A stretch of DNA of 64,000 nt from Gemmatimonadota bacterium. Lineage in GTDB: Bacteria; Gemmatimonadota; Gemmatimonadetes; Gemmatimonadales; Gemmatimonadaceae. This document shows, piece by piece, positions 37,824 to 53,866 of the stretch (position 1 is the stretch's first letter; each line of letters starts with the position of its first letter). The DNA is taken from positions 1 through 64,000 of the forward strand of contig JAJPIS010000073.1 in assembly GCA_021324635.1 (NCBI GenBank). Reading direction: 5' to 3'. Under the pieces are notes generated by a model, which was not told where the DNA came from, searched no databases, and worked only from the letters and a program-made list of their open reading frames with translations. Both the position numbers and the translations under genes were made by a program.

Positions 37824-38186
37824 GTGAGTCACACGGTTCTGATTTGCGACGACGCGATCTTCATGCGCACGATGGTCGGCGACATCCTCCAGCAAGCCGG
37901 ATTCGATATCGTCGGTGAGGCCGAGACCGGCGTGCAGGCGGTCGAGAAGTACCGGCAACTGCGCCCGGATCTGGTGACGATGGATATCGTCATGCCCGAC
38001 ATGGGCGGCATCGACGCCGTGCGTGAGATCACGAAGTTCGATCCGCAGGCCAAGATCCTCATGTGCAGCGCGATGGGACAGCAGGCGCTGGTCGTCGAGG
38101 CGATTCAGGCCGGCGCGCGGGACTTCGTCGTCAAGCCGTTTCAGCCGAGCCGCGTGCTGGAAGCCGTCCAGCGCGTGCTCGGGTAG
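37824..38186 (+). CDS. cheY: CheY-like single-domain response regulator
   Basis: This 120-residue protein is a receiver domain only. The acidic pocket is CDDA near the N-terminus, the phosphorylated residue is D54 in VTMDIVMPDMGG, the switch Ser is in MCSAMGQ, and the conserved Lys is in FVVKPF. CheA phosphorylates it and CheC or autolysis dephosphorylates it. In this cluster its target may be the motility or MglA machinery and not only a flagellar switch. GTG 37824 has CTGGAG 7 bases upstream. Confidence 0.95.
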   Translation: MSHTVLICDDAIFMRTMVGDILQQAGFDIVGEAETGVQAVEKYRQLRPDLVTMDIVMPDMGGIDAVREITKFDPQAKILMCSAMGQQALVVEAIQAGARDFVVKPFQPSRVLEAVQRVLG

Positions 38187-38241
38187 CCCGGGCCTCACCG
38201 CCGCGACGCCCGCGGCCTCCGAGCGCCCCGGCGCCGCCCCC

Positions 38242-40425
38242 GTGGACCCTGCGCGGTACGCCGAGCTGTTCCTGACGGAGAGTCGGGAGCATCTGTCGGC
38301 CATCAATCAAGCCCTCCTCGAGCTCGAGCGGGCCGCGCGCGCGGGCGCGAAGGGGGGGCGGACCGGAGCACGGGCGGCGGGTGGGGACACCGACGTGCAG
38401 GCGGCGGTGGGATCGCTGTTCCGCGCCGTGCACACCGTCAAGGGGATGAGCGCCACCATGGGGTACTCGGCCGTGGCGGCGCTCTCGCACGAGATGGAAG
38501 CACTTCTGGACGGCGTGCGGTCCGCCGGCCGTGACGTCGACGCGCCGCTCATGGACCTGCTGTTCGAGGCGGCCGACGCGCTCGAATCCTCGATCGAGCG
38601 GGCCGTCTCGGATGAGGAGAGCGACCCCCGGGCCGCCGATGTGACGCAACGGCTCCGCGATCTCCTGACGCCGGCCCACCCCCCCGCGGCGCCCGCACCC
38701 GAGTCCTCGGGCGATCGGCCGACGCGTCGCCGCAAGACCGCCACGGGTCGGACGCGTCGGAGCCGCGCCCACCCGGAGCCGGACGCGCCGCACGGTGGTC
38801 GGGCGGAGGCGAATCGGCCGGAGATGAGTCGCCCGCCCGCCGCCCCGGGAACCGCGATCCGGATCCTCTTCGACCCCGACGCCCCCCTCCGGGGGGCGCG
38901 GGCGGCGATGGCGGTGGCCCGGGCGCACGAGCTGGGCGAGGTGACGGCTGTCCAGCCTGCGCCCGAGCGCTTCGCGGATCCCGAGTTCGGGCACGAGCTC
39001 TGGCTTCGCGTGGTGACGACCGCGCCGACGCCGGAGATCGAGCGCCGGCTCGGCGGCGTGGGGGACGTGACCCGCGTCGACGTCGAGCGAGATGAGACCA
39101 CGCCTGCCGCCCGCGAGTCGAGCGCGCCCCGCGAGCCCAGCGCGACCCGCGGGTCCAACGGGCAGCCGGCGGCCCCCGGCGGGTCGGCATCGCTCCAGGT
39201 CGATCATGGCCCGAAGGCGCGGCACGTCCGCATCGACCTGCGGCGGCTGGACGCGCTCATGAACCTGATCGGCGAGCTGGTGATCGCCCGCGGACGCCTG
39301 GTCGAGCTGACGGCCGGGAGCGACGATGCGGCGCTGGTCGAGACGATGGATCTCGCGTCTCGCCTGATCGGCGACCTGCAAGATGAGATCATGACCTGCC
39401 GGATGGTCCCGGTCTGGCAGGTCTTCGATCGATTCCCGCGCCTCGTGCGCGATGCCGCCCGGGCCCTGGGCAAGCAGGTTGAGCTCGAGGTGGAGGGGAA
39501 GGAGATCGAGCTCGATCGGTCGATGCTCGACGAGATCGGCGATCCGATCGTGCACCTGCTCCGCAACGCCCTGGATCACGGGATCGAGAGCCCGGAGGAA
39601 CGAGCGGCGTCCGGGAAGCCGCCCGAAGGCCGGCTGACGCTGAGCGCGATGCGGGACCGGTCGGCCGTCCTCATCCGCGTCGCCGACGACGGCCGGGGGA
39701 TCGACCGCGGCAAAGTGCTCGCGCGGGCGCTCGACGCCGGGCTCGTCGATGCCGGCACGACGGCGCTCACGGACGAGGAAGTCATCCACCTCATCGCCCG
39801 GCCCGGCTTCACGACCGCCGAGCGCGTGACCAGTCTCTCCGGCCGGGGCGTCGGGATCGACGCCGTCCAGGCGCGCGTCCGGGCCCTGGGCGGCGCGGTC
39901 GACATCAGGAGCGTACCGGGCCAGGGCACGACGGTCACGGCGCGCCTCCCCCTCACGCTCGCGATCATGCGCGCCCTGCTGGCCCGCGTCGCGGGTGAGA
40001 CCTACGCCTTCCCGATGGCCCACATCGACGAGACGGTGGCGGTCACGGGGGCGTCGTTCGCCGCTGTCCGCGGCCAGCCGGTCCTGCTCCTTCGGGGGGA
40101 GGCGGTCCCGTACGTCCAGCTCCGAAGTCTGATCGGGCTGGGATCCGCGGCCGCCCCGGACGGCAGCGGGGGTAACGGCGCGGCTTACGGCACCGGACCC
40201 GGGTCGGGGGCCGGCGGGCCGGCCGCTGACCCGGAGCAGCACATCCTGGTCGTCGAATCGGCGGGCCGGCGCGCCGCGATCGCCGTCGACGAGCTCACCG
40301 GCCAGCAGGACATCGTGGTCAAACAGTTCGATGCCGCCCGGGGCGGGGCGGCGCTGTTCAGCGGCGCGACGATCCTCGGGGACGGAGCGCCCGCCTTGAT
40401 CGTCGATGTAAGCACCCTCTGTTGA
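38242..40425 (+). CDS. cheA: Chemotaxis histidine kinase CheA
   Basis: This 727-residue kinase has the standard domain order. P1 carries the phosphorylated H64 in AVHTVKGMSATMGY. A Pro/Arg-rich linker leads to a P2-like domain (about 205-290) and the P3 dimerisation helices (LMNLIGELVIARGRL). The P4 ATPase has HLLRNALDHGIE and DDGRGID, and the P5 CheW-like end finishes VDELTGQQDIVVKQF. GTG 38242 is chosen because the P1 domain begins at once; the longer frame runs antiphase through cheY. It starts 55 bases after cheY. Confidence 0.95.
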   Translation: MDPARYAELFLTESREHLSAINQALLELERAARAGAKGGRTGARAAGGDTDVQAAVGSLFRAVHTVKGMSATMGYSAVAALSHEMEALLDGVRSAGRDVDAPLMDLLFEAADALESSIERAVSDEESDPRAADVTQRLRDLLTPAHPPAAPAPESSGDRPTRRRKTATGRTRRSRAHPEPDAPHGGRAEANRPEMSRPPAAPGTAIRILFDPDAPLRGARAAMAVARAHELGEVTAVQPAPERFADPEFGHELWLRVVTTAPTPEIERRLGGVGDVTRVDVERDETTPAARESSAPREPSATRGSNGQPAAPGGSASLQVDHGPKARHVRIDLRRLDALMNLIGELVIARGRLVELTAGSDDAALVETMDLASRLIGDLQDEIMTCRMVPVWQVFDRFPRLVRDAARALGKQVELEVEGKEIELDRSMLDEIGDPIVHLLRNALDHGIESPEERAASGKPPEGRLTLSAMRDRSAVLIRVADDGRGIDRGKVLARALDAGLVDAGTTALTDEEVIHLIARPGFTTAERVTSLSGRGVGIDAVQARVRALGGAVDIRSVPGQGTTVTARLPLTLAIMRALLARVAGETYAFPMAHIDETVAVTGASFAAVRGQPVLLLRGEAVPYVQLRSLIGLGSAAAPDGSGGNGAAYGTGPGSGAGGPAADPEQHILVVESAGRRAAIAVDELTGQQDIVVKQFDAARGGAALFSGATILGDGAPALIVDVSTLC

Positions 40426-40454
40426 TCCCGACGAACCGGCCCAACCACCCAGCC

Positions 40455-41075
40455 ATGGAAGACATCCGCTCGCTCAAGGCGAACCAGCTCGATGCGCTTC
40501 GCGAGGTGGCCAACATCGGTGCCGGCCACGCGGCGACCGCCCTGTCCCAGATGATCGGCGGGACGATCATGATCAGCGTGCCGACGATCAACATCGCCCG
40601 GCTGGAGGACGTGCCGCCGCAGGTCTCGGCGCCGGAGGAGCCGGTGGCCGCCGTGCTCATGAACATGCTGGGTGATCTGACCGGTCGGACACTCCTGGTG
40701 CTCCCACGGCAGACGGCCGTGAAGCTGGCGGGCATCATGTTGCGGCGGCAGATGGGCTCGGACTCCGAGCTCGGCCAGGTCGAGCAATCGGCCATCAAGG
40801 AAGCCGGGAACATCCTGAGCGGCGCCTACCTCAATGCGCTCAGTGACTTCATGGGACTGATGCTCCTTCCCTCGCCGCCGAGCCTCGCCGTCGACATGTC
40901 GAGCGCCGTCCTGACGACGGCCTACCTCCAGTTCGGCACCGACCGGGATTACGTCTTCTGCGTCGAGACCGAGTTCTTCATGCAGGAAGTCGGCGAGCAT
41001 CTGCGCGGCTTCTTCCTGCTCCTGCCGGACGTCGCCTCGCTCCACGCGATCCTGCGCGCGGTGCGCGTCGCCTAG
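40455..41075 (+). CDS. cheC: CheC-family CheY-P phosphatase
   Basis: This 206-residue protein has two copies of the CheC active-site helix: LREVANIGAGHAATALSQ near residue 15 and SAIKEAGNILSGAYLNALSD near 115, each with the Glu and Asn that attack phospho-CheY. In Bacillus and Thermotoga, CheC works with CheD, which is also present in this cluster. ATG 40455 gives the normal N-terminus; a TTG at 40422 overlapping the cheA stop is an alternative that would add 11 residues. Confidence 0.92.
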   Translation: MEDIRSLKANQLDALREVANIGAGHAATALSQMIGGTIMISVPTINIARLEDVPPQVSAPEEPVAAVLMNMLGDLTGRTLLVLPRQTAVKLAGIMLRRQMGSDSELGQVEQSAIKEAGNILSGAYLNALSDFMGLMLLPSPPSLAVDMSSAVLTTAYLQFGTDRDYVFCVETEFFMQEVGEHLRGFFLLLPDVASLHAILRAVRVA

Positions 41076-41090
41076 CGGCGGAGCGGCACG

Positions 41091-43940
41091 GTGGGCGACG
41101 GGACGGCACCCAGCGCGACCAGTCTCGTCTCGGAGCGGGACCGGGAGGTCTTGCGCTCCTTCACGCGACGAATCGACCCCTCGGACGCGGGCGCCCACAA
41201 CAACCTCGGCGTCCTCTACTACCACAAGGGACTCTACGAGGAGGCGGTCGGGGCATTCACGCGTGCCCTCGAGCTGGACCCGAAGATGCAGGTCGCACAA
41301 CGCAACCTCGAGGTCGCGTACTTCGGGACGGGATACTACGACCGGCGCGTCGCCCTGCTCCACGATCAGCTCCGCACGTCTCCGGGCGATCGCGAGGCAC
41401 GCTGGGAGCTCGGCCGGGCCTACAGCCTGCTCGGGCGCAACGCCGAGGCGGTCGCCGAGTTCACGGCGCTGCTCGAGCATCACCCAGACGATGTCGGGGC
41501 GCTGGTGCAGCTCGGGCTGGCGGAAAAGGCGTCCGGGGACCTGGAAGAGGCCCAACGGTGGTTCGAGCGGGCGCTCGCGCTCGATCCGCAGAGCCCGATC
41601 GTCCAGTTCTACATCGGGGAGGTCCTGTACAACCGCGGCCTGAACGAGCAGGCGCTGGCGGCGCTGGAGCGGGCGATCGCCCTGCATCCCGACCACCCGG
41701 ACGCCCATTACCTGATGGGGTTCGTCCTGGGCGACATGGGCCGGCACGAAGAGGCGCAGCAGGCGACGAAGCGGGCCGTGCACCTGAATCCCACGCTGTC
41801 GCGGGCGCAGACGAACCTCTCGCTCGACCAATCCCCGCTGGGCCGTGCCGGCCTCGCCGCGACGCCACCCCTCTCCGCGCCCGCGCCCGTGCCGGAGCGA
41901 CACGCATCGGGGATCATGGGCGTCGCCGACGAGGGAGCGCTCGCGCACTTCAACCTGGGTCTCGCCTTCCGCCAGAAGGGGTACTACGCCGAGGCCCTCC
42001 GCGAGTACGCGCTCGCCCTCGAGCGTGGGGAGGAACGGAGCCTCGTCCAGCAGGCGATCGCCGAAGTCCACCTGCTCCGCAAGGATGTCGCCGGTGCGGT
42101 CGCGGCCTACGACGCCCTGCTCGCCGAGCAGCCGGCCAGCCCGAAGCTCTGGAACGAGCGTGGCGTCGCGCTCCACCAGGACGGGCGCTACTCCGACGCG
42201 GCCGCGAGCTATCGGCGTGCGATCGACGCCGACCCGAACTACGCCCTGGCGCACAACAACGTGGGGGTCGCGCAGTACCACGCGGGCGACATCCCGGCGG
42301 CGAACGCCGCGTTCGAGCGCGCGCTCGACCTGGCGCCCACGTTCGTGCAGGCCCGGCTCAACCTCGCGCTGCTCCACTTCAAGTCGAAGCGACTCCAGTC
42401 GAGCCTCGAGGCGTACCGTCGCGTGCTCACCGACGCGCCCGAGCACCCCGGCGCCTGGAACGGCGTCGGCCTCGTCCTCACCGAGCTCCGGCGATTCGAA
42501 GAAGCGCGCAACGCCTTCGCCCGCGCGGTGCAGGGCCGGCCGGACTATGCCGAAGCCCACTACAATCTGAGCTTCGCGCTCTCCAACCTGGGCGACTTCG
42601 AGGGCGCGCTGCGCGAGACCAAGCGGGCGCTCGAGCTCGATCCGTACTACGTCCCGCAGAAGTTCGAGCTCGCGATCGACTTCCAGTACGAGCACCCCGA
42701 GCTCTCGATCGTCCCCGATCTCGTCGGGAGCGCGCAGCCGACCGATGCCGGCGTGACCGAGTTCGCGTTCGATACGGCGCTCCTCGACTCGCTGTTCAGC
42801 GAGTTGTCGCCCGGCGGGGGAGCGGCACCTGGCGCCGCCGAGCCGCCGCCGGCCGCCGATCCGGATCCGTACGGCATCGCGGTCGACTATCTCGCCAAGG
42901 GGCTGTACGAGCGGGCCGCGGCCGAGGCGAGTCGCTCGCTCCAGCGCGGCGCCGATCGGGCCCAGGGCCTCACGTTGCTGGGCGACATCTTCGCGCGCCA
43001 GGGGCTGCACGGCGAGGCCCTCGAGCGGTACCGCGACGCGCGGCGGACCGACGGGCGACCGTTGCGCGCGCTCATCGGAGAAGTGCGGGCCCTCGTGGCC
43101 CTCGGCCAATCGGCGGACGCGCAGCCGGCCGCGGAGACCCTGCTCGCCGAGGGAGCGACCGATGCCGACGCGCTGGTCGTGGTTGCCTCCGCCCGGACAT
43201 CGGCCGGAGACCCGGCCGGCGCACTGGCGGTGCTCGAGCATGCCCGCGCCATTGCCCCCGGCCGGGCGGACGTCCTGCACGCGATCGGCGACGTGAACCG
43301 CCGGATGGGCGACGACGCGCGGGCGCTCGAGGCCTACCGGGACGCCCTGGCGATCGACCCCGACCGCGCCGTCGTCCGGTACGAGCTGGCGACGCTGTTG
43401 GTCGGCGCCGGGCGCGCGGCGGAAGCCGAAGCCGAGTTGCTCGAGGCGCTCGATCGGGTGCCGACCTATGCCGCCGCGACGCTCGCGCTCGCGCGGCTCT
43501 GGCGCACCCTCGGCCGCACGCAGGCGGCCATGGGGCTGCTCATCGACCTGCTCGAGCGCGACGTCTCGCACGTGCCGGCGTTGCTCGCGCTCGGCGAGCT
43601 GCTCTTCGACGACGGCCGGCGCCGCGACGCGGCGCGCGTCTTCGCACGACTCCTGATCGTCCAGCCGGGGCATCCGGGCGCGCTGTACTACGAGGGGGCG
43701 GCGCTCGCCGAGCAGCACCGGTACCGAGACGCGATCGAGCGGTGGGAGGCGGTGATTGCGGCCGATCCCGAGGGGCCCTTTGGCGGTCGCGCCCGCCGCG
43801 ATTGTCGGACGGCTCGCGATCTCGCGGCGATCTTCGTCCGCCGCGCCGCGGCCGCCCCGGTGCCGTTCGGGTCGGCGGCCCTCCGCGCGGCCACCGCGCC
43901 CGCGGCGCCGTCGCACGCCGGGTTGCGGAGGGCCGGCTGA
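41091..43940 (+). CDS. Giant TPR protein of the chemosensory cluster
   Basis: This 949-residue protein is almost wholly tetratricopeptide repeats, in two blocks (about 30-250 and 280-530) and a third block (about 600-900), divided by Pro/Ala-rich linkers. Typical repeats are AHNNLGVLYYHKGLYEEAVG and AHYNLSFALSNLGDFEGALR. There is no signal peptide or membrane segment, so it is cytoplasmic. TPR arrays hold protein complexes together; here the likely partners are products of the same operon. The start is GTG 41091, 15 bases after cheC, and the stop overlaps the next ATG. Confidence 0.85.
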   Translation: MGDGTAPSATSLVSERDREVLRSFTRRIDPSDAGAHNNLGVLYYHKGLYEEAVGAFTRALELDPKMQVAQRNLEVAYFGTGYYDRRVALLHDQLRTSPGDREARWELGRAYSLLGRNAEAVAEFTALLEHHPDDVGALVQLGLAEKASGDLEEAQRWFERALALDPQSPIVQFYIGEVLYNRGLNEQALAALERAIALHPDHPDAHYLMGFVLGDMGRHEEAQQATKRAVHLNPTLSRAQTNLSLDQSPLGRAGLAATPPLSAPAPVPERHASGIMGVADEGALAHFNLGLAFRQKGYYAEALREYALALERGEERSLVQQAIAEVHLLRKDVAGAVAAYDALLAEQPASPKLWNERGVALHQDGRYSDAAASYRRAIDADPNYALAHNNVGVAQYHAGDIPAANAAFERALDLAPTFVQARLNLALLHFKSKRLQSSLEAYRRVLTDAPEHPGAWNGVGLVLTELRRFEEARNAFARAVQGRPDYAEAHYNLSFALSNLGDFEGALRETKRALELDPYYVPQKFELAIDFQYEHPELSIVPDLVGSAQPTDAGVTEFAFDTALLDSLFSELSPGGGAAPGAAEPPPAADPDPYGIAVDYLAKGLYERAAAEASRSLQRGADRAQGLTLLGDIFARQGLHGEALERYRDARRTDGRPLRALIGEVRALVALGQSADAQPAAETLLAEGATDADALVVVASARTSAGDPAGALAVLEHARAIAPGRADVLHAIGDVNRRMGDDARALEAYRDALAIDPDRAVVRYELATLLVGAGRAAEAEAELLEALDRVPTYAAATLALARLWRTLGRTQAAMGLLIDLLERDVSHVPALLALGELLFDDGRRRDAARVFARLLIVQPGHPGALYYEGAALAEQHRYRDAIERWEAVIAADPEGPFGGRARRDCRTARDLAAIFVRRAAAAPVPFGSAALRAATAPAAPSHAGLRRAG

Positions 43941-45094
43941 TGCCGATCGAGGGGGCCCTCCGCGAGCTCGGGATCCACGACGTCTTCCAGATGCTGGACC
44001 TCAGCCGGAAGACCGGCGCCCTCCGGGTCACGTCGGAGCTGCGCGACAACGAGGGAACGGTGCTCTTCGACCACGGCCGGGTCGTGTCCGCGAGCGTCCG
44101 GACCAACCCCGCGCCGCTCGGTACGCTCCTCGTGCGCGCGGGTCGCGTGACCGAGGCCGAGCTGGCCGAGGCGCGCGCGCGGCAGGGCGGCCCGGACCGG
44201 CGGCGGCTGGGGGATATCCTCCTGTCAATGGGTGTGCTCGGCTCGCGAGAGCTCGAGCATCACGTTCGGCTGCAAATCGAGACCGTCGTCTTCGAGCTCA
44301 TGTCGTGGCGCGACGGATTCTTCTCCTTCCAGGAATGCGACATCGACCCGACCGTGCTGGAAGCGGCGGTCTCCGTGTCGACCGAATCGCTCCTCATGGA
44401 GGGCGCGCGCCGCATCGATGAATGGTCGCGCATCGGCCACAAGGTCCCGAGCCTCGATGTCGTCCCGGTGCTGGCCACCGTGGCCGACGACCACGCCACG
44501 CTGCTCGACCTGCTCCCCAGCGAATGGGAAGTGCTGGCCCGCATCGATGGGGACACCGACCTGCGCGGGATCGCGACCTCCCTCGGGCGCAGCGAGTTCG
44601 ATGTGGCGAAGGTCGTCTACGGGCTGCTGACCACGGGTGTGGTGCAACTGCGCGACGCGGGGGCCCGGAACGGCAGTCGCTCTCCGGGAGCGGCGGACGC
44701 GGACCCGCGGCGGTTGCTCGACACGGCGCGGGCGGCGCTGGCCGCGGGGCGGCTCGACGACGCCCTGACGGCGGCGCGCCTCGCCATCGGCGCGGAGCCC
44801 GGCGGGATCGACGCGCGGCTGACGGCGGCCCGTGCCCTGCGCCGGCTCGGGCGCTTCGGCGATGCCGCCGAGGAGCTCCGTCGGGCCGCCGAGATCGCGC
44901 CGGAGCACCCGGGGATCGCCCTGGAGCTCGGGTTCACCGCCCTCAGCAAGGGCGACCTGGACTCGACCGTCGCGAGCTGGAAACGCTACCTCGGCATCGC
45001 GCCGTCCACGGCCCCCGAGGCCCAGACCGTCCGCGATGCGCTGGCGTCCGCCTGCCACCTGCGTGGGCTCCTCGAGGCGGTGCCCGTTGGCTGA
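43940..45094 (+). CDS. PATAN (DUF4388) domain protein with C-terminal TPR repeats
   Basis: This 384-residue protein begins with a PATAN/DUF4388 domain (about 1-110: GALRELGIHDVFQMLDLSRK, then GTVLFDHGRVVSAS). A second helical region about 110-245 (LGDILLSMGVL, FELMSWRDGFFSFQE) is shared with the protein at 48663. Two or three TPR repeats end it (about 255-365). In other bacteria PATAN domains occur in response regulators tied to surface motility and pili. Here it may couple CheA output to MglA. It overlaps both neighbours by a few bases. Confidence 0.82.
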   Translation: MPIEGALRELGIHDVFQMLDLSRKTGALRVTSELRDNEGTVLFDHGRVVSASVRTNPAPLGTLLVRAGRVTEAELAEARARQGGPDRRRLGDILLSMGVLGSRELEHHVRLQIETVVFELMSWRDGFFSFQECDIDPTVLEAAVSVSTESLLMEGARRIDEWSRIGHKVPSLDVVPVLATVADDHATLLDLLPSEWEVLARIDGDTDLRGIATSLGRSEFDVAKVVYGLLTTGVVQLRDAGARNGSRSPGAADADPRRLLDTARAALAAGRLDDALTAARLAIGAEPGGIDARLTAARALRRLGRFGDAAEELRRAAEIAPEHPGIALELGFTALSKGDLDSTVASWKRYLGIAPSTAPEAQTVRDALASACHLRGLLEAVPVG

Positions 45095-46070
45095 CGACAT
45101 CGAGCGCTGGAGCGGCGAGCTCGCGCGGGATCCGGCGAGCATGGTCTTCATCCCGCTGGCCGACACGCTCCGCCGGCGGGGGCAGCTCGACCTCGCGCTC
45201 AGAGTGGCGACGCGTGGACTCGCGCGGCATCCCTACGATGGCGATGCGCACGATCTGCTCGCCCGCATCTGGATCGATCGCGACGACCCGCAGCGCGCGA
45301 TGGACGAATGGGCGATGGCGTTGCGCTGCGCGCCCGGCCACCCGGGGGCCCTCAAGGGGATGGGCTTCGCGGCGTTCCGGGCGGGCCGGACGGCCGAGGC
45401 GGTGGAGTACCTCGAGCAGGCCGCGGCCGCCGATCCGGGCGATCGGTCGATTCGCGTCGCTCTCGACCGCGTCCGCGAGGCGGCGGCGACGACGGCGCAC
45501 GCCCCCGAGGACCGGGCCCTCGCCTCGCCGCCACCCGGGGCGGTGACCGACGACGAGCCCGCGGAGGCCGGGCACACCGGAACCGGGGATGCGGCGTCCA
45601 CCGCCGGCGACGCGGGCATCGAGGGCAACGGGTCGGACGAGGATCCGTCGCCGGCGGCCGATCGCGTGCTGGCCGGGGAAGATCCGCGCGCGCTGTTCAC
45701 CGATCTACTCACGGAGCCCGAGCTGGCGGCGCTCCTGCTCGACGTCGGGGGGCTCGTGCTCGCAGGCCACTACGTGCTGGCGGACGGCCGCGACGTGGCC
45801 CAGGACGTTGGCGGCGCCCTCACCGGCGTGAGCGACGAGGCCCGACGGGCGATGCGGCACCTGGGACTGGGGGCCTGGTCGTCGCTCATCTTCGAGACCG
45901 ATATCGCGGCCATGGCGCTCGCACCGCTGGGGGCGGGGGAGGCGGACCAGGGGACCGCGCTTGTCGCCGCCGGTCGGTCGGTGCCGCTCGGGCTCGTGCG
46001 CCGGCTCGTCCGTCGGGTCGCGGCGCGCGGCGCGGCGTGGCTCGCCGCCTCGGACGGAGCGGGGCCGTGA
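45087..46070 (+). CDS. TPR plus roadblock/LC7-like domain protein
   Basis: This 327-residue protein has TPR repeats at about 10-135 (DTLRRRGQLDLALRVATRGL), an acidic disordered linker (about 140-200), and a C-terminal roadblock/LC7-like domain (about 205-325: LLLDVGGLVLAGHYVLADGR). It is the first of three successive genes with this fold just before mglA. Roadblock proteins regulate small GTPases, for example MglB on MglA. TTG 45087 is used because it overlaps the upstream stop codon and no ATG or GTG lies nearby; this rare start deserves care. Confidence 0.72.
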   Translation: MADDIERWSGELARDPASMVFIPLADTLRRRGQLDLALRVATRGLARHPYDGDAHDLLARIWIDRDDPQRAMDEWAMALRCAPGHPGALKGMGFAAFRAGRTAEAVEYLEQAAAADPGDRSIRVALDRVREAAATTAHAPEDRALASPPPGAVTDDEPAEAGHTGTGDAASTAGDAGIEGNGSDEDPSPAADRVLAGEDPRALFTDLLTEPELAALLLDVGGLVLAGHYVLADGRDVAQDVGGALTGVSDEARRAMRHLGLGAWSSLIFETDIAAMALAPLGAGEADQGTALVAAGRSVPLGLVRRLVRRVAARGAAWLAASDGAGP

Positions 46071-46414
46071 GCACGCCGTTCGATGACGTGCTGGAGGGGC
46101 TCGTCCGCCAGCGCGGCGTGCGAGGCGGGCTGATCGTGAGCGAGCGTGACGGCATCCTCGTGGACGCGCACGTGCAGATCGGCGTGCGCGGGCCGGTCAT
46201 TGCCGCGCTCGCGGCGTCGATGTACCGGAAGGCGCGCCTGTCGGCCGGTGCGGCGGGGCTCGGGGATGTCGTCTACGTCGAGCTGGTGGCGGCGCGTGGG
46301 CGGCTGTGCATGGCGGGGCGCGAAGACCTGCTGATCGTTCTCGTGACCGACGCGCGAGCGAGCGTCGCCCTCCTGCGCGCGGCCGTGCTGCGGGCGACCG
46401 AGGTGTTGCAATGA
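46067..46414 (+). CDS. Roadblock/LC7 domain protein
   Basis: This 115-residue protein is a lone roadblock/LC7 domain (FDDVLEGLVRQRGVRGGLIV, SERDGILVDAHVQIG, then EDLLIVLVTDARASVALLR). Such proteins dimerise and act as GTPase regulators or scaffolds. GTG 46067 overlaps the previous stop (GTGA) and its stop overlaps the next ATG. It might be part of an MglB-like complex with its neighbours. Confidence 0.78.
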   Translation: MSTPFDDVLEGLVRQRGVRGGLIVSERDGILVDAHVQIGVRGPVIAALAASMYRKARLSAGAAGLGDVVYVELVAARGRLCMAGREDLLIVLVTDARASVALLRAAVLRATEVLQ

Positions 46415-46881
46415 CCCTCGCCGTCGTGGAGCACTGGATCGAGGAGCCGTTGCGTCACTTCCTCGATGACGCGCAGGTGCTGCTCGCGCTGGTGCTGACG
46501 CCGAGCGGCCAGGTGCTGGCGCAGCACGGCTTCACCCGGGCGGTCGACGTCATGTCGGCCTGCGCGCTCGCGGCTGCCATCCAGGCTTCATCGGCGGAGC
46601 TCGGTCGGCAACTTCAGGACCGGCCGTTCGGGGCCCTGCATCACGCCGGGTGCGCGCGTCAGCTCTTTCTCGCGAGCGCCGACACGCCGCGGGGCCCGCT
46701 GCTCGTCGTCAGCGTGTTCGACGACGCGACCTCGATCGGGCTCGTCCAACTGTACTTCGAGGAGTTGCGGGGCCGCCTCGCGGCGAGCGCACCGCCGGCC
46801 CATGCCACGCCGCCCGCCCCTCTCGCCGACACGTTCGAGCGGGACCTCGATCGCAACCTCGCGCTTCTTTTCCGCAGGTAG
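46411..46881 (+). CDS. Roadblock/LC7 protein, MglB-like candidate
   Basis: This 156-residue protein lies 5 bases before mglA, the place where mglB sits in Myxococcus. Its fold is roadblock-like (LLALVLTPSGQVLAQHGFTR, then GPLLVVSVFDDATSIGLVQL), followed by a Pro-rich linker and a C-terminal helix (FERDLDRNLALLFRR). MglB is the GTPase-activating partner of MglA and is of similar length. The identity is supported by position and fold, not by close sequence that I can verify. Confidence 0.72.
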   Translation: MTLAVVEHWIEEPLRHFLDDAQVLLALVLTPSGQVLAQHGFTRAVDVMSACALAAAIQASSAELGRQLQDRPFGALHHAGCARQLFLASADTPRGPLLVVSVFDDATSIGLVQLYFEELRGRLAASAPPAHATPPAPLADTFERDLDRNLALLFRR

Positions 46882-46886
46882 CCGCC

Positions 46887-47519
46887 GTGCCGCTCGTCAA
46901 CTACGCCACGCGTGAGATCACGTGCAAGATCGTCTACTACGGGCCGGGGCGGTCCGGCAAGACGACGAACCTGCACTACATCTACGGTCAGGTCCCGAGC
47001 GATCGGAAGGGGCGCATGGTGTCGTTGGCGACCCAGACGGACCGGACGCTCTTCTTCGACTTCCTGCCGCTCGATCTCGGGACGATCTCCGGGTTCACGA
47101 CGAAGATGCAGCTCTACACGGTGCCCGGGCAGGTGTACTACCAGGCCACGCGTCGCCTCGTGCTCCAGGGCGCGGACGGCGTCGTGTTCGTGGCCGACAG
47201 TCAGCGGCGTCAGCTCGACGAGAACGTGGAAAGCCTCCAGGATCTGCACAGCAACCTGGCGGAGCACGGCATCGATGCCCGGACGGTGCCGGTCGTCTTG
47301 CAGTACAACAAGCAGAATCTTCCGCCGGAGCTCATTCTCGATGTGCCGACGCTCGAGGACGTGCTCAACTTCCGCAACGTGCCCTCCTACGCGGCCGACG
47401 CCCTGCACGGGGACGGCGTGTTCGAGACACTGCGGGGCATCTCGGAGCTCGTGCTCCGGCGGTTGAGCGGATCGGGTGTGGCTGCGGCCGCCGGGGCTGG
47501 CGGCCAGCATCCGCGCTGA
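46887..47519 (+). CDS. mglA: MglA polarity GTPase
   Basis: This 210-residue Ras-like GTPase closely follows Myxococcus MglA from its first residues (LVNYATREITCKIVYYGPG). The P-loop is GPGRSGKT (19-26), switch regions follow (QTDRTLFFDFLPLDLG, YTVPGQVYYQATRR), and QYNKQNLP is the base-recognition motif. MglA-GTP marks the leading cell pole and controls gliding and type IV pili, and its direction is set by a chemosensory pathway (Frz) in Myxococcus. Finding it inside a che operon suggests the same logic. GTG 46887 fits. Confidence 0.94.
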   Translation: MPLVNYATREITCKIVYYGPGRSGKTTNLHYIYGQVPSDRKGRMVSLATQTDRTLFFDFLPLDLGTISGFTTKMQLYTVPGQVYYQATRRLVLQGADGVVFVADSQRRQLDENVESLQDLHSNLAEHGIDARTVPVVLQYNKQNLPPELILDVPTLEDVLNFRNVPSYAADALHGDGVFETLRGISELVLRRLSGSGVAAAAGAGGQHPR

Positions 47520-47532
47520 GACGGGGCGCCCG

Positions 47533-48663
47533 GTGCCCGCGGACGGCCGGTACCGCTTCGAGACGTACGTCGTCGGCCCCACGAACCGCGGCGCGACCGA
47601 GATGGCGCGCGCGGTCGCCGAGGCGCCCGGCGCGTCGAGCAACCCCCTCGTGATCTGCGGAGCCCCCGGCGTCGGCAAGACCCACCTGCTCGGCGCCATC
47701 GCCGCCCACGCGCTCGCCATCCATCCGACGCTGGCCGTCGTGTCGGTCGCTGCCGAGGCGCTCGCCCGGCCGGCGCTGGCCAGCCCTGACGGTGCCCGCC
47801 ATGCGTTCACCGCCCGGTGCCTGGGCGCCGACCTCCTCATCGTCGACGACCTTCAGGCGCTGGCGGGGCGACCCGAGGCACAGGCCGACCTGCTGCGAAT
47901 CTGTCGCGGACTGCACCAGGCCGGGCGCCAGATCGTGGTCGCATGCGATCGGCCACTCGCGGCTCTCCCGGGGATGGACCCGTCCCTCGTGGAGTGCCTG
48001 TCCAGCGGAACGACGGCGACCATCGGGGCACCGGAGATCGCTCCCCTGGCCGGTGCACGGCCGCGCGTGAGCGCGCCCGCGGCGGCGAGCGCGGCGAGCG
48101 CGGCGAGCGCGGCCACCGCGGCCAGCGCGGCCACCGGACCGGGTGTGGCGGCGCCCGGCGCGCCGCGACGTGGCCGGCAGCCAGGCCGGAACGGGATGGG
48201 ATACCAGGATTTCGTCTCCGACGTCGCCGATGCCGTGGCGCGCCATGTCGAGCCGTGGCGAAGCCGGCTCGCGGAAGCCGTCGCGGTATGGGCCGCGAAC
48301 GGGTACGAAGTCCGCGTGCTCGAGCGCGGACTCCGATGCCAGACCGACCCTGGCACCGATGCGCTCCTTCGCGCCTACGGGGCCGCGGTCGAGCACCTGC
48401 GCGCGCTGGAGGCGCAAGCCGAGGCCGACGGAACGCGAGTCGACGATCCCGCCGTGTTTCGAGATCCGGAGCGGGTGCAGGAAGCCGAGGCGGCCGTGGC
48501 TCGGACGGCCCGGCCGCCGGCCGCCCGGCCCGCGGCATCCCCGACGGGCGCGGCTGGCGTGAAGCCGCCCGCGCCCGACCTCGACCGGTACTTCCTCGAT
48601 CCCGAGAAGGTCGTGCTGGACTGGCCTGATCCGGCCGGCCGCCTGATCGAGGAGTGGCGCTGA
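47533..48663 (+). CDS. DnaA-like AAA+ ATPase without DNA-binding domain
   Basis: This 376-residue protein begins with a domain close to DnaA domain III: YRFETYVVGPTNRGATEMAR, Walker A GAPGVGKTH (43-51) and Walker B LLIVDDLQAL (D105-D106). The sensor region (QIVVACDRPLAALPGM) follows DnaA, but the helix-turn-helix domain IV is absent. In its place are an Ala/Ser-rich linker (about 175-200), a helical domain (about 215-295: DFVSDVADAVARHVEPW) and a conserved-looking C-terminus (LDRYFLDPEKVVLDW). GTG 47533 starts the domain directly; GTG 47476 would overlap mglA. The role in this cluster is unknown. Confidence 0.8.
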   Translation: MPADGRYRFETYVVGPTNRGATEMARAVAEAPGASSNPLVICGAPGVGKTHLLGAIAAHALAIHPTLAVVSVAAEALARPALASPDGARHAFTARCLGADLLIVDDLQALAGRPEAQADLLRICRGLHQAGRQIVVACDRPLAALPGMDPSLVECLSSGTTATIGAPEIAPLAGARPRVSAPAAASAASAASAATAASAATGPGVAAPGAPRRGRQPGRNGMGYQDFVSDVADAVARHVEPWRSRLAEAVAVWAANGYEVRVLERGLRCQTDPGTDALLRAYGAAVEHLRALEAQAEADGTRVDDPAVFRDPERVQEAEAAVARTARPPAARPAASPTGAAGVKPPAPDLDRYFLDPEKVVLDWPDPAGRLIEEWR

Positions 48664-50288
48664 TGGCGATCCGCGGCAGTCTTCGGGAGGCGAGCCTTCC
48701 CGACGTGCTCCAGTTGCTGGCGATGGGCAAGAAGACGGGGTGCCTGAGCGTCACCCACCGGAGCAACTTCGGCTACATCTACTTCGAGCGTGGCCGCATC
48801 GCATATGCATCGATCGTCAATCGTCGGGACCGGTTGGGGGATCTGCTCGTCAACGCCGGGCTGGTCACGCGGGAGCAGCTGGAGATGGCCATCGAGGCGC
48901 AGCGGACGGAGCCCAATCGGCGGCTGGGCGATCTGCTCATCAGCCGGGGCATCGTGACGCGCGAGGCACTGCACGAGCAAGTGCGCGTCCAGATCGAGGA
49001 GGCGGTCTTCTCCCTCTTCACCTGGTCGCAGGGGACCTTCAACTTCGAGCCGGACATTCGGCCCGAGGACCAGGCCTTCATCGTCTCGATCAGCCCGGAG
49101 TCCTTGCTGCTGGAGGGGGCGCGGCGGGTCGACGAATGGGGCGTGATCGAGGAGACGATCCCGAGCTTCGACATCGTCTTCGAGGTCGACGCCGAGCGCG
49201 TCCGGCAGCACGGGGCGGCGCTCACGCCGGCCCAGGACCTGATCCTCGGCCTGCTCGACGGACGCCGCGACGTGCGGGCGCTCATCGACGAGTCGGGGCT
49301 CAGCGAGTTCGATGCCGGGAAGGCGCTCTGCGCGCTGGCCGCGGCCGGGATCGCGCGCCGCGTGGGTCGCACGCGGACCGAGCCGGAGGTCTCGGACGCC
49401 CGCGTCGAGGAGCACCGCAACCTCGGCGTCGCGTTCTACAAGACCGGGATGTTCGACGAGGCGCTCCGCGAGTTCCGGCGAGTGATGGAGCTGCGTCCCG
49501 CCGACGCCGCCGCGCCGTTCTACCTCGGGCTGGTGCTGATCCGCCAGGGGCAGTGGGCGGGGGCCGTCGAGGCCTACACGGCCGCGGCGGCATCGCCGGG
49601 CGCACACGCCGTCGTGCTGCACAACCTCGCCTTTGCCCTCGAGCGACTGGGACGCCTGGACGACGCGGCGGCCGTTCTGGACCAGGCGGCGGCGCGGGCC
49701 GGCGACGACCCGCGGGTCCGGACCTCGTTGGGGGCACTGGCCCTCCGTCGCGGCGAGGTACGGGATGCCGATGCCCTGCTGACCGCCGCCCGGCCGCTCT
49801 GGGGCACCCGCGCGCCCGCGCCGGCCTGGTTTCATTTCGCCGGGCTCGCGGCCGCGCTACTCGGCGACCTCGACCGGGCAGCGGCGATCCTCACGGAAGG
49901 CACGGCACGCCACCCGCGGGCCGCGGCGCTGCACAACAACCTCGCCGTGGTGCAGGAGCGCGTCGGCAGCTTCGGGGACGCCGCGGCGTCCCTGGAGCGT
50001 GCCCTCCAGGAAGACGCGACGGTCCCACAGGTGCACAAGAACACCGGTGACCTGGCGTACCGGACCGCGCGGTATGATGAGGCGCTGGACGCCTATGCGC
50101 GCGCGACGCGCATCAACCCGACACTCGGACCGGATGCGTTCCTGAGGATGGGCAACATTCGCTACCGCCGCGGAGAGGCCACGGAAGCGATCACCTGCTG
50201 GCAGTCGGCGCTCGCGCTCGATCCGACCAACGGGATCGCGCGCAGCAACATCGAGGCGGCGGAGCGCGCCGCACGGGCGCGGCCATGA
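48663..50288 (+). CDS. PATAN (DUF4388) domain protein with long TPR region
   Basis: This 541-residue protein repeats the design of the protein at 43940: a PATAN domain (about 1-105: GSLREASLPDVLQLLAMGKK), a shared middle region (RRLGDLLISRGIVTR, FSLFTWSQGTFNFEP, LLLEGARRVDEW), then about eight TPR repeats (245-535). The two are probably paralogues that assemble with different partners. It is cytoplasmic, with no signal peptide. ATG 48663 overlaps the upstream stop (TGATG); its stop overlaps cheR. Confidence 0.84.
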   Translation: MAIRGSLREASLPDVLQLLAMGKKTGCLSVTHRSNFGYIYFERGRIAYASIVNRRDRLGDLLVNAGLVTREQLEMAIEAQRTEPNRRLGDLLISRGIVTREALHEQVRVQIEEAVFSLFTWSQGTFNFEPDIRPEDQAFIVSISPESLLLEGARRVDEWGVIEETIPSFDIVFEVDAERVRQHGAALTPAQDLILGLLDGRRDVRALIDESGLSEFDAGKALCALAAAGIARRVGRTRTEPEVSDARVEEHRNLGVAFYKTGMFDEALREFRRVMELRPADAAAPFYLGLVLIRQGQWAGAVEAYTAAAASPGAHAVVLHNLAFALERLGRLDDAAAVLDQAAARAGDDPRVRTSLGALALRRGEVRDADALLTAARPLWGTRAPAPAWFHFAGLAAALLGDLDRAAAILTEGTARHPRAAALHNNLAVVQERVGSFGDAAASLERALQEDATVPQVHKNTGDLAYRTARYDEALDAYARATRINPTLGPDAFLRMGNIRYRRGEATEAITCWQSALALDPTNGIARSNIEAAERAARARP

Positions 50289-51112
50289 GCGGAACGCCGA
50301 GCGATGCGCTGGGCGACCAGGCGTTCGCCGATCTGCTCGCCAAGATCGCGCGCGACCGGCAGTTCCAATGCCGGAGCTACAAGGAGAAGTGCCTCCGCCG
50401 GCGCATCGCCGTCCGGCTCCGTGCGCGCGGCGTCGCGACCTACGGCGAGTATGCCGATCTACTCGACCGGGATGCGCGCGAGTACGACAAGCTGCTCGAC
50501 GCGCTCACCATCAACGTCACCAAGCTGTTCCGCAACTGGGAGACCTACGCCGCCATTCAGCGCCTCGTGGTACCGACCCTGTGGACGCTGCCGGCTCCGG
50601 CGCTGCACGTCTGGAGCGCGGGATGTGCCTCGGGCGAGGAGGCCTACTCACTCGCGATCCTCTTTCACCGCCACGCGACGGCCGCCGGCCAGGCGTCGAG
50701 CGTCAGTCGGGTGCGTGTCCTCGGCACCGACATCGACCGGGAAAGCCTCCTCGCCGCGGACCGCGCGAGCTACGGCGAGGCGGCCTTCGCCGACACCCCC
50801 GCCGAGATCCGTGACCGCTATTTCTCGCCGGGGCTGCCGGCGCAGCTCGATCCGTCGGTGCGGAGCCTCGTCCGCTTCGCGCGGCAGGACCTCATCCGGA
50901 CGGCGCCGCCGCCGGGGCAGCACCTGATCGCCTGCCGCAACGTGATCATCTATTTCGACCGCGAGACGCAGGAGGAGCTCTTCCAGCGCTTCCACGCGGC
51001 ACTCGTCCCGCGCGGGTTCCTCGTCCTCGGGAAAGTGGAGACGCTCCTGGGCGAGGCCCGCAATCGCTTCATCCCGGTCGATGCGCGCGAGCGCATCTTC
51101 CAGCGCGCATGA
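50285..51112 (+). CDS. cheR: CheR protein-glutamate methyltransferase
   Basis: This 275-residue enzyme methylates glutamates of chemoreceptors with S-adenosylmethionine. The N-terminal helical domain (FQCRSYKEKCLRRRIAVRLR) is followed by the SAM fold with WSAGCASGEEAYSLAI, LGTDIDRESL and HLIACRNVIIYFD. No receptor is coded in the window, so the substrate must be elsewhere in the genome, or could be a soluble protein. Start and stop overlap both neighbours by 4 bases. Confidence 0.94.
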   Translation: MSGTPSDALGDQAFADLLAKIARDRQFQCRSYKEKCLRRRIAVRLRARGVATYGEYADLLDRDAREYDKLLDALTINVTKLFRNWETYAAIQRLVVPTLWTLPAPALHVWSAGCASGEEAYSLAILFHRHATAAGQASSVSRVRVLGTDIDRESLLAADRASYGEAAFADTPAEIRDRYFSPGLPAQLDPSVRSLVRFARQDLIRTAPPPGQHLIACRNVIIYFDRETQEELFQRFHAALVPRGFLVLGKVETLLGEARNRFIPVDARERIFQRA

Positions 51113-51591
51113 GCGACCAGATCCGCGTCCGGGTCGCGGACTACGCGGTCGCCCGCGGCTCGACCGTCATCGCGACGTTGGGGCTCGGCTCCTGTGTCGC
51201 GATCGCCCTCTACGACGCGGGGGCGCGCGTGGGCGGGTTGGCGCACGTGCTGCTGCCGAGCGAGAGCATGTCGCGTGACCGCGGCAATCGCGCGAAGTTC
51301 CCGTCGACTGCCGTGCCGCTGCTGCTCGAGGAGATGGAGAAGCTCGGCGCCCAGGGGCCGTTCACGGCCAAGCTCGCCGGCGGGGCCAGCATGTTCGGCG
51401 CCCTGCTCCCCGCCGGCGGGATCAACATGGGACTCCGCAACGTCGAGTCGGCGCGGCGCGCGTTGACCCAGGCCGGGGTTGCGATCGTCGCGCAGGACAT
51501 CGGCGGCGGCTACGGCCGCAGCGTCTTTCTGCACGTCGCCGACGGTCGGGTCGTCATCAAATCCTTGGCGAATGGCGAGCACGTTCTCTGA
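51109..51591 (+). CDS. cheD: CheD receptor glutamine deamidase
   Basis: This 160-residue enzyme deamidates receptor glutamines and binds CheC, whose phosphatase activity it increases. The catalytic pair is C29 (LGLGSCVAIAL) and H46 (GLAHVLLPS), and the family motifs AKLAGGASMF and NVESARRAL follow. Its presence with cheC, cheB and cheR gives the full Bacillus/Thermotoga-type adaptation set. Confidence 0.95.
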   Translation: MSDQIRVRVADYAVARGSTVIATLGLGSCVAIALYDAGARVGGLAHVLLPSESMSRDRGNRAKFPSTAVPLLLEEMEKLGAQGPFTAKLAGGASMFGALLPAGGINMGLRNVESARRALTQAGVAIVAQDIGGGYGRSVFLHVADGRVVIKSLANGEHVL

Positions 51592-52717
51592 CCCCGGGGG
51601 TCGCCGCCGCGCCCCACGCACGGTGCTGGTGGTCGACGACAGCGCCTTCATGCGGCGCGTGGTGAGCGACATCGTGATGTCGGTCCCGGAGGAATTTCGC
51701 GTCGTCGGCACGGCCCGGGACGGCCTCGATGCGCTGCGGCAGATCCACGCCCTGGCGCCCGACATCGTCACGCTCGACATCGAGATGCCCGAGCTCGACG
51801 GGCTCCAGGCACTCGGCTACATCATGTCGGAGATGCCGCGGCCGGTCGTGATGTTGAGTGCCGCCGGCGGGCCCGACGCGGCCACCCTCACGCTCCGCGC
51901 GCTGGAGCTCGGGGCGGTGGATTTCGTCCGCAAGCCGACGGGGCCGGTGCAGGCGGATTTTTCGCCGGTGCGCGACCGGTTGCTCTCCGCGCTCCGCGGC
52001 GCCGCGGTCATGAACCTGGGTGGCGTGCGCGTCCTCGCCCGGCCGTCGCTCGCCGGGGGTGCGCACGGGCGGGATGGCCCGATCGAGGGGCGCGAGGAGC
52101 CGCTCCACAGCGGCGCGCACTGGGCAGTGGTGATCGCGGCGTCCACCGGCGGACCGCGCGCGCTGACGGAGATCATCCCGCACCTGCCGGTCGATCTCGG
52201 GGCGGCGGTGCTCGTCGTGCAGCACATGCCCGGCGGGTTCACCGCTAGCCTGGCCCAGCGCCTGGATCAGATGAGCGTCCTCCGGGTCACCGAGGCCGTC
52301 GACCAGGAGCCGGTGCTCGACAACCGCGTCTATATCGCACGCGGGGGCGCCCACATGCGCGTCCACTCGAGCGGCGGCCGGGTTCGACTGGCGTTGGACG
52401 GCAGTCCTGCGATCTGGGGCGTCCGTCCGGCTGCCGACCCACTGTTTCGATCCGCCGCCCAGACCTTCGGCGAGCGTCTGGTCGGCGTCGTCCTGACGGG
52501 GATGGGGCGCGACGGGGCCGAGGGCCTCCGGGCCGTCCGAGACGCCGGGGGGCAGGGGGTCGTCCAAGATCAGATGACCTCGATCATTTATGGGATGCCC
52601 CATGCGGCGCTCACGACTGCCGGGGCGGATCGGGTTGCTGCCCTCCCCGCGGTCGCCACCGCCATCGTGGAACTGCTCGAGCTGGGGCGCCGACAGACCG
52701 CCGGGGCGGGGCGCTGA
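51572..52717 (+). CDS. cheB: CheB receptor methylesterase with receiver domain
   Basis: This 381-residue enzyme has a receiver domain (D69 in VTLDIEMPELDG) and a C-terminal methylesterase domain with the triad S191 (AASTGGPRAL), H218 (VVQHMPGGF) and D314 (TGMGRDGAEGL). Phosphorylation by CheA activates it to remove methyl groups added by CheR. ATG 51572 lies 20 bases inside cheD, an unusually large overlap in this cluster. Confidence 0.95.
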   Translation: MASTFSDPGGRRRAPRTVLVVDDSAFMRRVVSDIVMSVPEEFRVVGTARDGLDALRQIHALAPDIVTLDIEMPELDGLQALGYIMSEMPRPVVMLSAAGGPDAATLTLRALELGAVDFVRKPTGPVQADFSPVRDRLLSALRGAAVMNLGGVRVLARPSLAGGAHGRDGPIEGREEPLHSGAHWAVVIAASTGGPRALTEIIPHLPVDLGAAVLVVQHMPGGFTASLAQRLDQMSVLRVTEAVDQEPVLDNRVYIARGGAHMRVHSSGGRVRLALDGSPAIWGVRPAADPLFRSAAQTFGERLVGVVLTGMGRDGAEGLRAVRDAGGQGVVQDQMTSIIYGMPHAALTTAGADRVAALPAVATAIVELLELGRRQTAGAGR

Positions 52718-52724
52718 GGCTCCA

Positions 52725-53321
52725 ATGGCCGGCGTCCCCCACGTGAGCCCGTCGAGCGACGAGTGCGGCTCGGGCGTCGCCGCGCCCGTCTCGGCCTCCG
52801 CCGGCGTGCCGGCGCCTGGCGAGGACGTGCTCGTCTTCCGGGCCGGCGCCGAATCGTTCGCCATCGCGGCGAGCGCGGTCGAGGCGATCGTCGAATTGCC
52901 GTCCCTTCAGCCGCTCCCCGGGATGCCGGCCAGGATGCTCGGGATCGCGAAACTCCGAGGTCGACTCGTGCCCGTGTACTCGCCCGCCAGCGTGCTCAAT
53001 GTCTCGCTCGTCGATCCCGGGGCCGCCCTGATCGCGCGGGTGCGGGCCCGGCGAGGCGGGAGCGCGGTCGCCGTCGGCGCCGCCGATGACCCGGCGGCGG
53101 ATCCGGCCGGGGATCTCGGCCGGCGCGTCGCCGTCGCGATCGCCGGGGCGACCGGCGTCGTGACCTACGATCCGATGGCGTGGAGCGGCGTGGGCGGGGC
53201 GGCGCCGCGGAGCGGACTCGTGCGGGGTGTCGCGACGATCGAGCGGTCGTTGACCACGCTGCTCGACGCGGGGGTCTTCCTGTCCGAGTGCACGACCTCC
53301 GGGAACCCGGAACCGGCCTGA
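52725..53321 (+). CDS. CheW-like protein (second of three)
   Basis: This 198-residue protein has a divergent CheW domain (VLVFRAGAESFAIAASAVEA, then MLGIAKLRGRLVPVYSPASV), with an Ala/Asp-rich insert at about 110-135 (VGAADDPAADPAGDLGRR) not seen in ordinary CheW. It might be an adaptor for a different receptor or scaffold. ATG 52725 is 7 bases after cheB, and its stop overlaps the next ATG. Confidence 0.8.
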   Translation: MAGVPHVSPSSDECGSGVAAPVSASAGVPAPGEDVLVFRAGAESFAIAASAVEAIVELPSLQPLPGMPARMLGIAKLRGRLVPVYSPASVLNVSLVDPGAALIARVRARRGGSAVAVGAADDPAADPAGDLGRRVAVAIAGATGVVTYDPMAWSGVGGAAPRSGLVRGVATIERSLTTLLDAGVFLSECTTSGNPEPA

Positions 53322-53866
53322 TGTCACCGACCGCGCGGACTGCACCGGCGGCCGCCTTCGTGCCAGGCGCCGCCCCCCCGGCGCCGGCCGACCGGGGCAC
53401 GATCCAGATCGTCACCTTTCGGTTGGGTGACGACCTGTTCGCCGCCGACGTGCGGGCGGTCGAGCGGGTGCTCCGCTATCGGGAGCCGAGGCCAGTCCCC
53501 GACGTTCCGCCATGGATCAGCGGAGTCATCGAGTACCAGAAGCGCGTCGTGCCGGTGATCGATCTGCGGCTGCGCTTCGAGCTGGCGGCGGCCGCTCCCA
53601 CCGGCGAGGCGCGGATCCTGGTGTTCAACGCTGCCGCCGGATGGGTGGCCGGCGTCGTGGACGCCGTGCTGGATGTGAGCGCGCATGCGCAGGCGCAGGT
53701 CGAGGCAGCGCCGGCGCTCTTCAGGGGTCTGGCGGCGGAGTATCTCCACGGCATCGTCCGGCGGGACGGCGGCCTGGTGCTGGTCGTCGACGCCGAGCGC
53801 CTCGTGCAGGCGACCGATCGCGTGCTGGTCCAACGCGTGGCCGCGGCCGGAGCGCCTCGTGGCTGA
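53321..53866 (+). CDS. CheW-like protein (third of three)
   Basis: This 181-residue protein has a complete CheW domain (IQIVTFRLGDDLFAADVRAV, then ISGVIEYQKRVVPVIDLRLR) after a 28-residue Pro/Ala leader. Having three CheW-type proteins in one cluster suggests more than one coupling partner for the single CheA. The ATG overlaps the upstream stop (TGATG) and the stop overlaps the next GTG by 8 bases. Confidence 0.88.
   Translation: MSPTARTAPAAAFVPGAAPPAPADRGTIQIVTFRLGDDLFAADVRAVERVLRYREPRPVPDVPPWISGVIEYQKRVVPVIDLRLRFELAAAAPTGEARILVFNAAAGWVAGVVDAVLDVSAHAQAQVEAAPALFRGLAAEYLHGIVRRDGGLVLVVDAERLVQATDRVLVQRVAAAGAPRG

Follow-up and report, generated by a model that had tools for sequence, protein, structure and literature searches.

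Three different roadblock/LC7 proteins, here called A, B and C, one of them fused to TPR repeats, are encoded directly before a single mglA gene inside a chemosensory gene cluster of a Gemmatimonadota bacterium. The stretch of 64,000 nt that we analysed (the window) belongs to one contig of a Gemmatimonadota MAG of 4.09 Mb, and the cluster runs on a single strand from about 37.8 to 54.7 kb, starting with a CheY-like gene and ending with a gene for a TPR protein:

37824..38186, +, CheY-like receiver protein that opens the cluster (ORF, named by inspection)
38239..40425, +, CheA with Hpt, P2, H-kinase_dim, HATPase and CheW domains (Pfam; start chosen by us)
40422..41075, +, CheC (Pfam CheC, 2.1e-22)
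41091..43940, +, TPR protein of 949 aa (Pfam TPR)
43940..45094, +, DUF4388 (PATAN)-TPR protein 1 (Pfam PF14332, 3.6e-30)
45087..46070, +, A: TPR repeats and a C-terminal roadblock/LC7 domain, 327 aa (family profiles, AlphaFold model)
46067..46414, +, B: single roadblock/LC7 domain, 115 aa (Pfam on the family, AlphaFold, Foldseek)
46411..46881, +, C: MglB-like roadblock protein, 156 aa (family profile; conserved C-terminal FE.[DE]L...L..LF motif)
46887..47519, +, MglA-family small GTPase, 210 aa (phmmer against Myxococcus MglA, 2.9e-71)
47476..48663, +, protein with a DnaA-type AAA+ ATPase domain (Pfam Bac_DnaA, 8.6e-32; real start probably 3' of 47476)
48654..50288, +, DUF4388 (PATAN)-TPR protein 2 (Pfam PF14332, 2.1e-40)
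50285..51112, +, CheR-like (ORF, named by inspection; position conserved in relatives)
51109..51591, +, CheD-like (ORF, named by inspection; position conserved in relatives)
51590..52717, +, CheB-like (ORF, named by inspection, start by frame; position conserved in relatives)
52590..53321, +, CheW domain protein 1 (Pfam, 3.9e-16; ORF as listed, real start probably downstream)
53180..53866, +, CheW domain protein 2 (Pfam, 3.8e-29; ORF as listed, real start probably downstream)
53685..54743, +, TPR protein, last of the run (Pfam TPR; ORF as listed, real start probably downstream)

A, B and C each overlap the preceding gene by 4 to 8 bases; A starts with TTG within the 3' end of its upstream neighbour, the overlap of B with A reads GTGA and that of C with B reads ATGA, and 5 bases separate C from mglA. 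We take DUF4388 to be the PATAN domain. The Pfam matches of the AAA+ product of 47476-48663, which is conserved beside mglA, do not include a DnaA DNA-binding domain.

Roadblock folds of A, B and C

Single sequences compared with Pfam proved too weak an arbiter, and family alignments decided the roadblock identity of the three proteins. The B and C sequences of the window score 21.4 and 17.5 bits against PF03259, both below the 23-bit cut-off; the full sequence of A has no PF03259 match, and the sole Pfam match of its excised C-terminus is to Acetyltransf_6 (E 0.99). Pfam marks only three roadblock sites in the entire genome, with A and C escaping the model, a scarcity that speaks against a chance array. 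At the level of families, PF03259 (E<=1) matches 35 of the 36 A C-termini (best E 7e-13), 35 of 37 B members (best E 1e-12) and 39 of 41 C members (best E 5.7e-9). Against the PDB, the profile of the A C-terminus matches solved roadblock proteins (2.8e-5) and MglB (8e-4), that of B matches roadblock proteins (4.3e-11) as well as dynein roadblock chains, and that of C matches Myxococcus MglB (6izw, 4.4e-18), its best eight matches all being MglB; C scores 22.5 bits against the NCBIfam model of Thermus MglB, far below the cut-off of 200 set for that model. Compared with one another, the profiles link the roadblock domain of A to B (hhalign, 1.3e-5) and B to C (8.9e-6), and A to C weakly (0.0022).

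The AlphaFold model of B (pLDDT 94.4) has the order a-b-b-a-b-b-b-a, and its best Foldseek match is the solved roadblock structure 7yh1 (E 1.1e-8); the matches listed are roadblock-type structures, with TM (query) values of 0.76-0.87. In the model of A, TPR helices (2-137) are followed by a linker of low confidence (151-194) and then, at about 214-324, by a b-b-a-b-b-b-a domain with pLDDT mostly near 90 or more. Searches with the whole A model (Foldseek and VIA-align) gave TPR proteins only among the matches listed, and because these filled the listed matches the searches are silent on the roadblock part. The first-pass annotation had proposed three distinct roadblock proteins directly before one mglA and had singled out the 45087 and 46067 products for a check of their fold; family-level PF03259 matches and the AlphaFold models of A and B place both in the roadblock class, and the proposal holds.

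Conservation of the array and the lineage of MglA

Comparison of the domain set across relatives, also suggested in the first pass, revealed that the A-B-C triad recurs in 54 of 121 Gemmatimonadota genomes drawn for the purpose, with the threshold set at 1e-5 for A and B and at 1e-12 for C. Since some of these genomes had supplied rows of the alignments, finding them again was built into the design, which does not apply to their gene order. A is present in 56 genomes, with no A match in 65; B adjoins A in 56 of 56 and C adjoins both in 54 of 56, on the same strand, with 0-39 bases between the matches as measured from profile-match ends, not gene ends. The C match is broken in two in G140 and incomplete in G171. 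In G027 and G157 (loci L120 and L121, from one genus), A, B and mglA occur without C, mglA lying directly after B, and in G122 a C-like gene is present with neither A nor B. Judged by this co-occurrence, A and B behave as a unit. Relatives fetched by way of MglA or C, close ones of window MglA being in Gemmatimonadota and Gemmatimonadaceae MAGs, repeat the order A, B, C, mglA and its neighbours; because order and neighbourhood are conserved in this manner, a chance clustering of roadblock genes is ruled out. An apparent A-C-B order at L040 and L042 is an artefact of longest-ORF starts, the true order being A-B-C. Elsewhere in the source genome, an unlinked B-like roadblock gene (L118 8497-8850, minus strand, G000:C81) overlaps a receiver-domain gene, and many genomes of the phylum have orphan genes of the B family.

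A wider sample comprised the best 80 loci by similarity to window MglA, and hence is biased; 79 were kept with an MglA frame, L077 having fallen out of the tree set. Among the 79, A, B and C lie upstream of mglA in 18, B lies upstream and C downstream in nine (one Nitrospinota, one Sumerlaeota/BRC1 and seven Planctomycetota), one MglB-like gene is present in 38, and none is within reach in 14, a label that is unsafe in that several loci stop near mglA and the search used our own four profiles. Across the nine loci with B and C on opposite sides and L053, the product encoded ahead of B carries TPR repeats in 9 of 10 cases and matches a Pfam roadblock model at E<0.05 in 4 of 10; by these sequence matches the three-domain set is firm in L053, L054 and L078, weak in L070 and unproven in the remaining six. 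Looser variants (TPR protein, B, mglA, C) are found in Planctomycetota and Nitrospinota. Three consecutive roadblock matches at G060:C8:225602-226626 most probably represent the L053 cluster. Another three in succession occur at G080:C13:104997-105994, in the WOR-3 bacterium genome of L079, as seen in a search that took in 44 of the 63 loci L053-L115 and covered 43 of them.

In an unrooted MglA tree of 81 rows, the 19 A-B-C rows fall on one side of a branch with support of 89/84, and the 18 such rows without L053 on one with 99/96. MglA proteins of mglBA pairs, including that of Myxococcus and the second MglA of the source genome, form a clade of 42 rows (99/97) that leaves window MglA outside; on this tree, window MglA is of a lineage distinct from the Myxococcus-type MglA of mglBA pairs. 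An ordinary mglBA pair lies in the same genome after ybaB and recR (L119 5937-7256, G000:C52); LVRLK and an acidic tail, DDEIDRLF, are retained in the MglB of this pair, and the MglA carries an insert of about 30 residues.

The MglA proteins of six Planctomycetota loci (L054, L055, L070, L081, L106 and L113), in which mglA sits at about 4.3-7.1 kb, have a long C-terminal linker that ends in a hydrophobic stretch. Such a tail is present in six of the nine long MglA proteins tested, with a 19-residue Kyte-Doolittle mean of 2.1-3.3 near the C-terminal end, as if it were a membrane tail anchor.

Candidate roles of C, B and A

The first pass had started from the premise that Myxococcus relies on one MglB as the GAP of MglA. 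The premise is incomplete, since Myxococcus has two roadblock proteins, MglB and MglC, and loci with MglA and MglB in a 1:2 ratio were reported in 2014 (PMC4316618). MglC, the second roadblock protein, is described as docking to the GAP MglB (PMC10329633, PMC7949163). An MglB dimer clamps the MglA switches, and its C-terminal helix, resting on beta2-beta3/alpha5, aids nucleotide exchange (PMC6785124, PMC6876712, PMC11016934), such that by these accounts a single Myxococcus MglB does both the GAP and the GEF jobs via this helix (PMC6785124, PMC11016934). A division of the two activities between separate proteins, as the earlier annotation suggested, is unsupported as stated, given that a C-terminal motif of comparable kind is conserved in C.

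Of A, B and C, C is on sequence grounds the closest to MglB. In its C-terminal motif E143, L146 and F154 are present in 41 of 41 members and F142 in 40 of 41, and on the side of MglA the catalytic R53 and Q82 and the pocket residues L64 and I67 (roles as given in PMC6785124) are found in 42 of 42, as is a basic residue at 183, which our alignment places at Myxococcus K181. The second pocket lysine, K185, is not kept (E187 in 34 of 42 MglA). Of the two MglB residues that contact the MglA switches, N37 corresponds to position 32 of C, where 39 of 41 members have S or A and two have N, and R98 to position 96, which is R in 6 of 41 and P in the window, both residue roles being those given in PMC11016934; the KRK patch with which MglB docks MglC is not kept (position 113 is Q in 24 of 41 and R in 13 of 41), nor is the charge of K120 in the MglC-binding patch (E118 in 27 of 41). 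Because the motif and the pocket are kept and the equivalents of N37, R98, K120 and the second lysine are not, we consider C the likely GAP/GEF of window MglA with moderate confidence only; with N37, R98 and K120 equivalents missing, neither its predicted GAP activity nor an MglC-style dock is assured. Myxococcus MglB A64 and G68 are reportedly sites of binding mutants, and we kept residue A59 of C out of the evidence.

B, with 115 aa, invites comparison with MglC, a short roadblock protein free of N- and C-terminal extensions. Set against the FDI patch of MglC, B has D28 in 36 of 37 members and I or L at position 30 in 35 of 37, and the F is not kept; the placement (on D26/I28) is our own reading. 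The B profile matched no PDB entry named MglC at E<=1. We do not claim that B is MglC, with MglC unmatched and the docking patch of C not kept.

How the three proteins pair is a point on which several readings can be weighed. An obligate A-B heterodimer, stacked on C and MglA as in Ragulator with a separate function for every layer of dimers, we regard as possible though on the unlikely side. It would fit the adjacency of A and B in all 56 genomes, also where C is lost, the occurrence in other phyla of a TPR protein and B before mglA with C on the opposite side, the mutual match of the A roadblock and B profiles, and the acidic character of the A domain beside a more basic B (median pI 4.9 against 7.9). 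Homodimers, however, are the rule for MglB and MglC as described in PMC10329633, and no frame with two roadblock domains occurs among the 330 match frames of the loci then in the set; three of the 330 have two matches, and all three are the interrupted second MglA of the source genome. Mirror-tree partial correlations over 31 loci are higher for A-C (0.47) than for A-B (0.40) or B-C (0.27), with overlapping intervals that favour no pair.

It seems improbable that A, B and C are instead three independent homodimeric regulators, one a GAP, one GEF-like and one a localisation factor. Each does have conserved residues of its own, and Myxococcus has separate MglB, MglC and RomRX parts (PMC10329633); yet the frames overlap and the order is constant, which suggests a stoichiometric complex, and C alone already bears a motif comparable to the GEF-active helix.

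A proposed chemosensory route to MglA and its relation to known systems

The reading that we prefer, and regard as evenly poised between right and wrong, is that of a dedicated chemosensory-to-GTPase operon in which C would be an MglB-type regulator, A and B together an adaptor, and type IV pili the output. The sequences themselves establish that the roadblock proteins are three different ones, in what order they come and that they are conserved, and that this MglA is of a separate lineage. The CheA/CheY/CheC/CheR/CheD/CheB/CheW system would feed a divergent MglA paralogue with its own roadblock set. C may clamp the MglA switch regions and insert its C-terminal helix into the beta2-beta3/alpha5 pocket, acting as a GAP with GEF aid, and B, as the small roadblock subunit, would join A, with its flexible TPR arm, in a shared adaptor between the GTPase/C unit and partners of the Che, PATAN or TPR type, comparable to the docking of MglB by MglC and RomR in Myxococcus. 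The pili would be controlled by way of the PATAN-TPR and TPR proteins.

Pili are the likeliest output, through an indirect link, because PATAN regulators have been tied to PilB1 in cyanobacteria (PMC7690835), SgmX, a TPR protein, is described as an MglA partner for pili (PMC11580455), and the genome has a PilT-family ATPase above its NCBIfam cut-off, PilB-like pieces and no match to FliG_N. The part of the window annotated with Pfam holds no pilus genes, and of the five MCP domains in the genome none is on the window's contig.

Against the preferred reading it counts that G027 and G157 have A, B and mglA but no C, so that A/B or the other MglB may regulate MglA there, and that the mirror-tree correlations do not favour A-B over A-C. 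The clusters of G027 and G157 fit badly with a scheme in which A and B are adaptors with no MglA contact, C is the only regulator and the ordinary mglBA pair does the main work. We likewise think this scheme improbable, even with clear MglB similarity confined to C and an ordinary pair present at C52.

An extended form of the preferred operon would have an obligate A-B heterodimer adaptor with a TPR arm and MglB-like C make up a layered platform resembling Ragulator, by which a chemosensory array would control the state of a dedicated Ras-like GTPase, with the TPR/B/C sets of Planctomycetota acting on a membrane-tethered MglA; we judge this rather unlikely as a whole. Roadblock heterodimers may occur in the cassette; the best-known hetero-oligomeric platforms built of this domain serve the control of small GTPases in eukaryotes. 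The conserved set of three suggests a control of the switch more elaborate than the textbook case, and the operon would make testable both the route from a chemosensory kinase to an MglA-type GTPase and the existence of roadblock heterodimers in bacteria; the A-B-mglA clusters of G027 and G157 are a naturally occurring case in which to ask if A-B can regulate MglA.

Among the papers listed by searches of open-licence PMC literature there was none on a set of three roadblock domains, one fused to TPR repeats, within a Che cluster, and nothing on DUF4388 together with MglA. For Gemmatimonadetes and MglA they gave nothing on the cassette, the phylum being listed among holders of Group 1 loci; for Planctomycetes roadblock/MglA/TPR sets they gave nothing on it as judged by title and abstract, and for tail-anchored MglA nothing relevant as judged by title.

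Among known systems, the MglA/MglB/MglC/RomR module of Myxococcus xanthus with Frz is alike in having an MglA-type GTPase, more than one roadblock protein and a chemosensory system upstream (PMC10329633), whereas here all parts form one cluster, the third roadblock domain is TPR-fused, C lacks the R98 and K120 equivalents and MglA falls outside the Myxococcus-type clade. Ragulator/Rag (LAMTOR1-5) also gathers several roadblock domains around a small GTPase, a parallel drawn by the authors of PMC10329633 themselves, and LAMTOR/Ragulator chains are among the Foldseek matches of B; that system, however, is eukaryotic with proven heterodimers, while the present cassette is known from sequence and the predicted A and B models, and its GTPase has no roadblock domain. 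The actinobacterial conservons likewise combine a kinase, a roadblock protein (CvnB) and an MglA-family GTPase (CvnD) in one locus (PMC4316618), with one roadblock protein and a sensor kinase where the window has a full Che system, three roadblock domains and PATAN and TPR proteins. The Group 1 loci of Wuichet and Sogaard-Andersen (PMC4316618), in which MglA is coupled to two MglB, share the pattern of one MglA with several roadblock genes, and differ from the locus here in that it has three domains, one of them hidden in a TPR protein and missed by Pfam in the window. Multi-roadblock MglA loci are thus already known in principle, in the 1:2 form; what is new, as far as the open-licence literature shows, is the three domains, the TPR fusion and the Che cluster.
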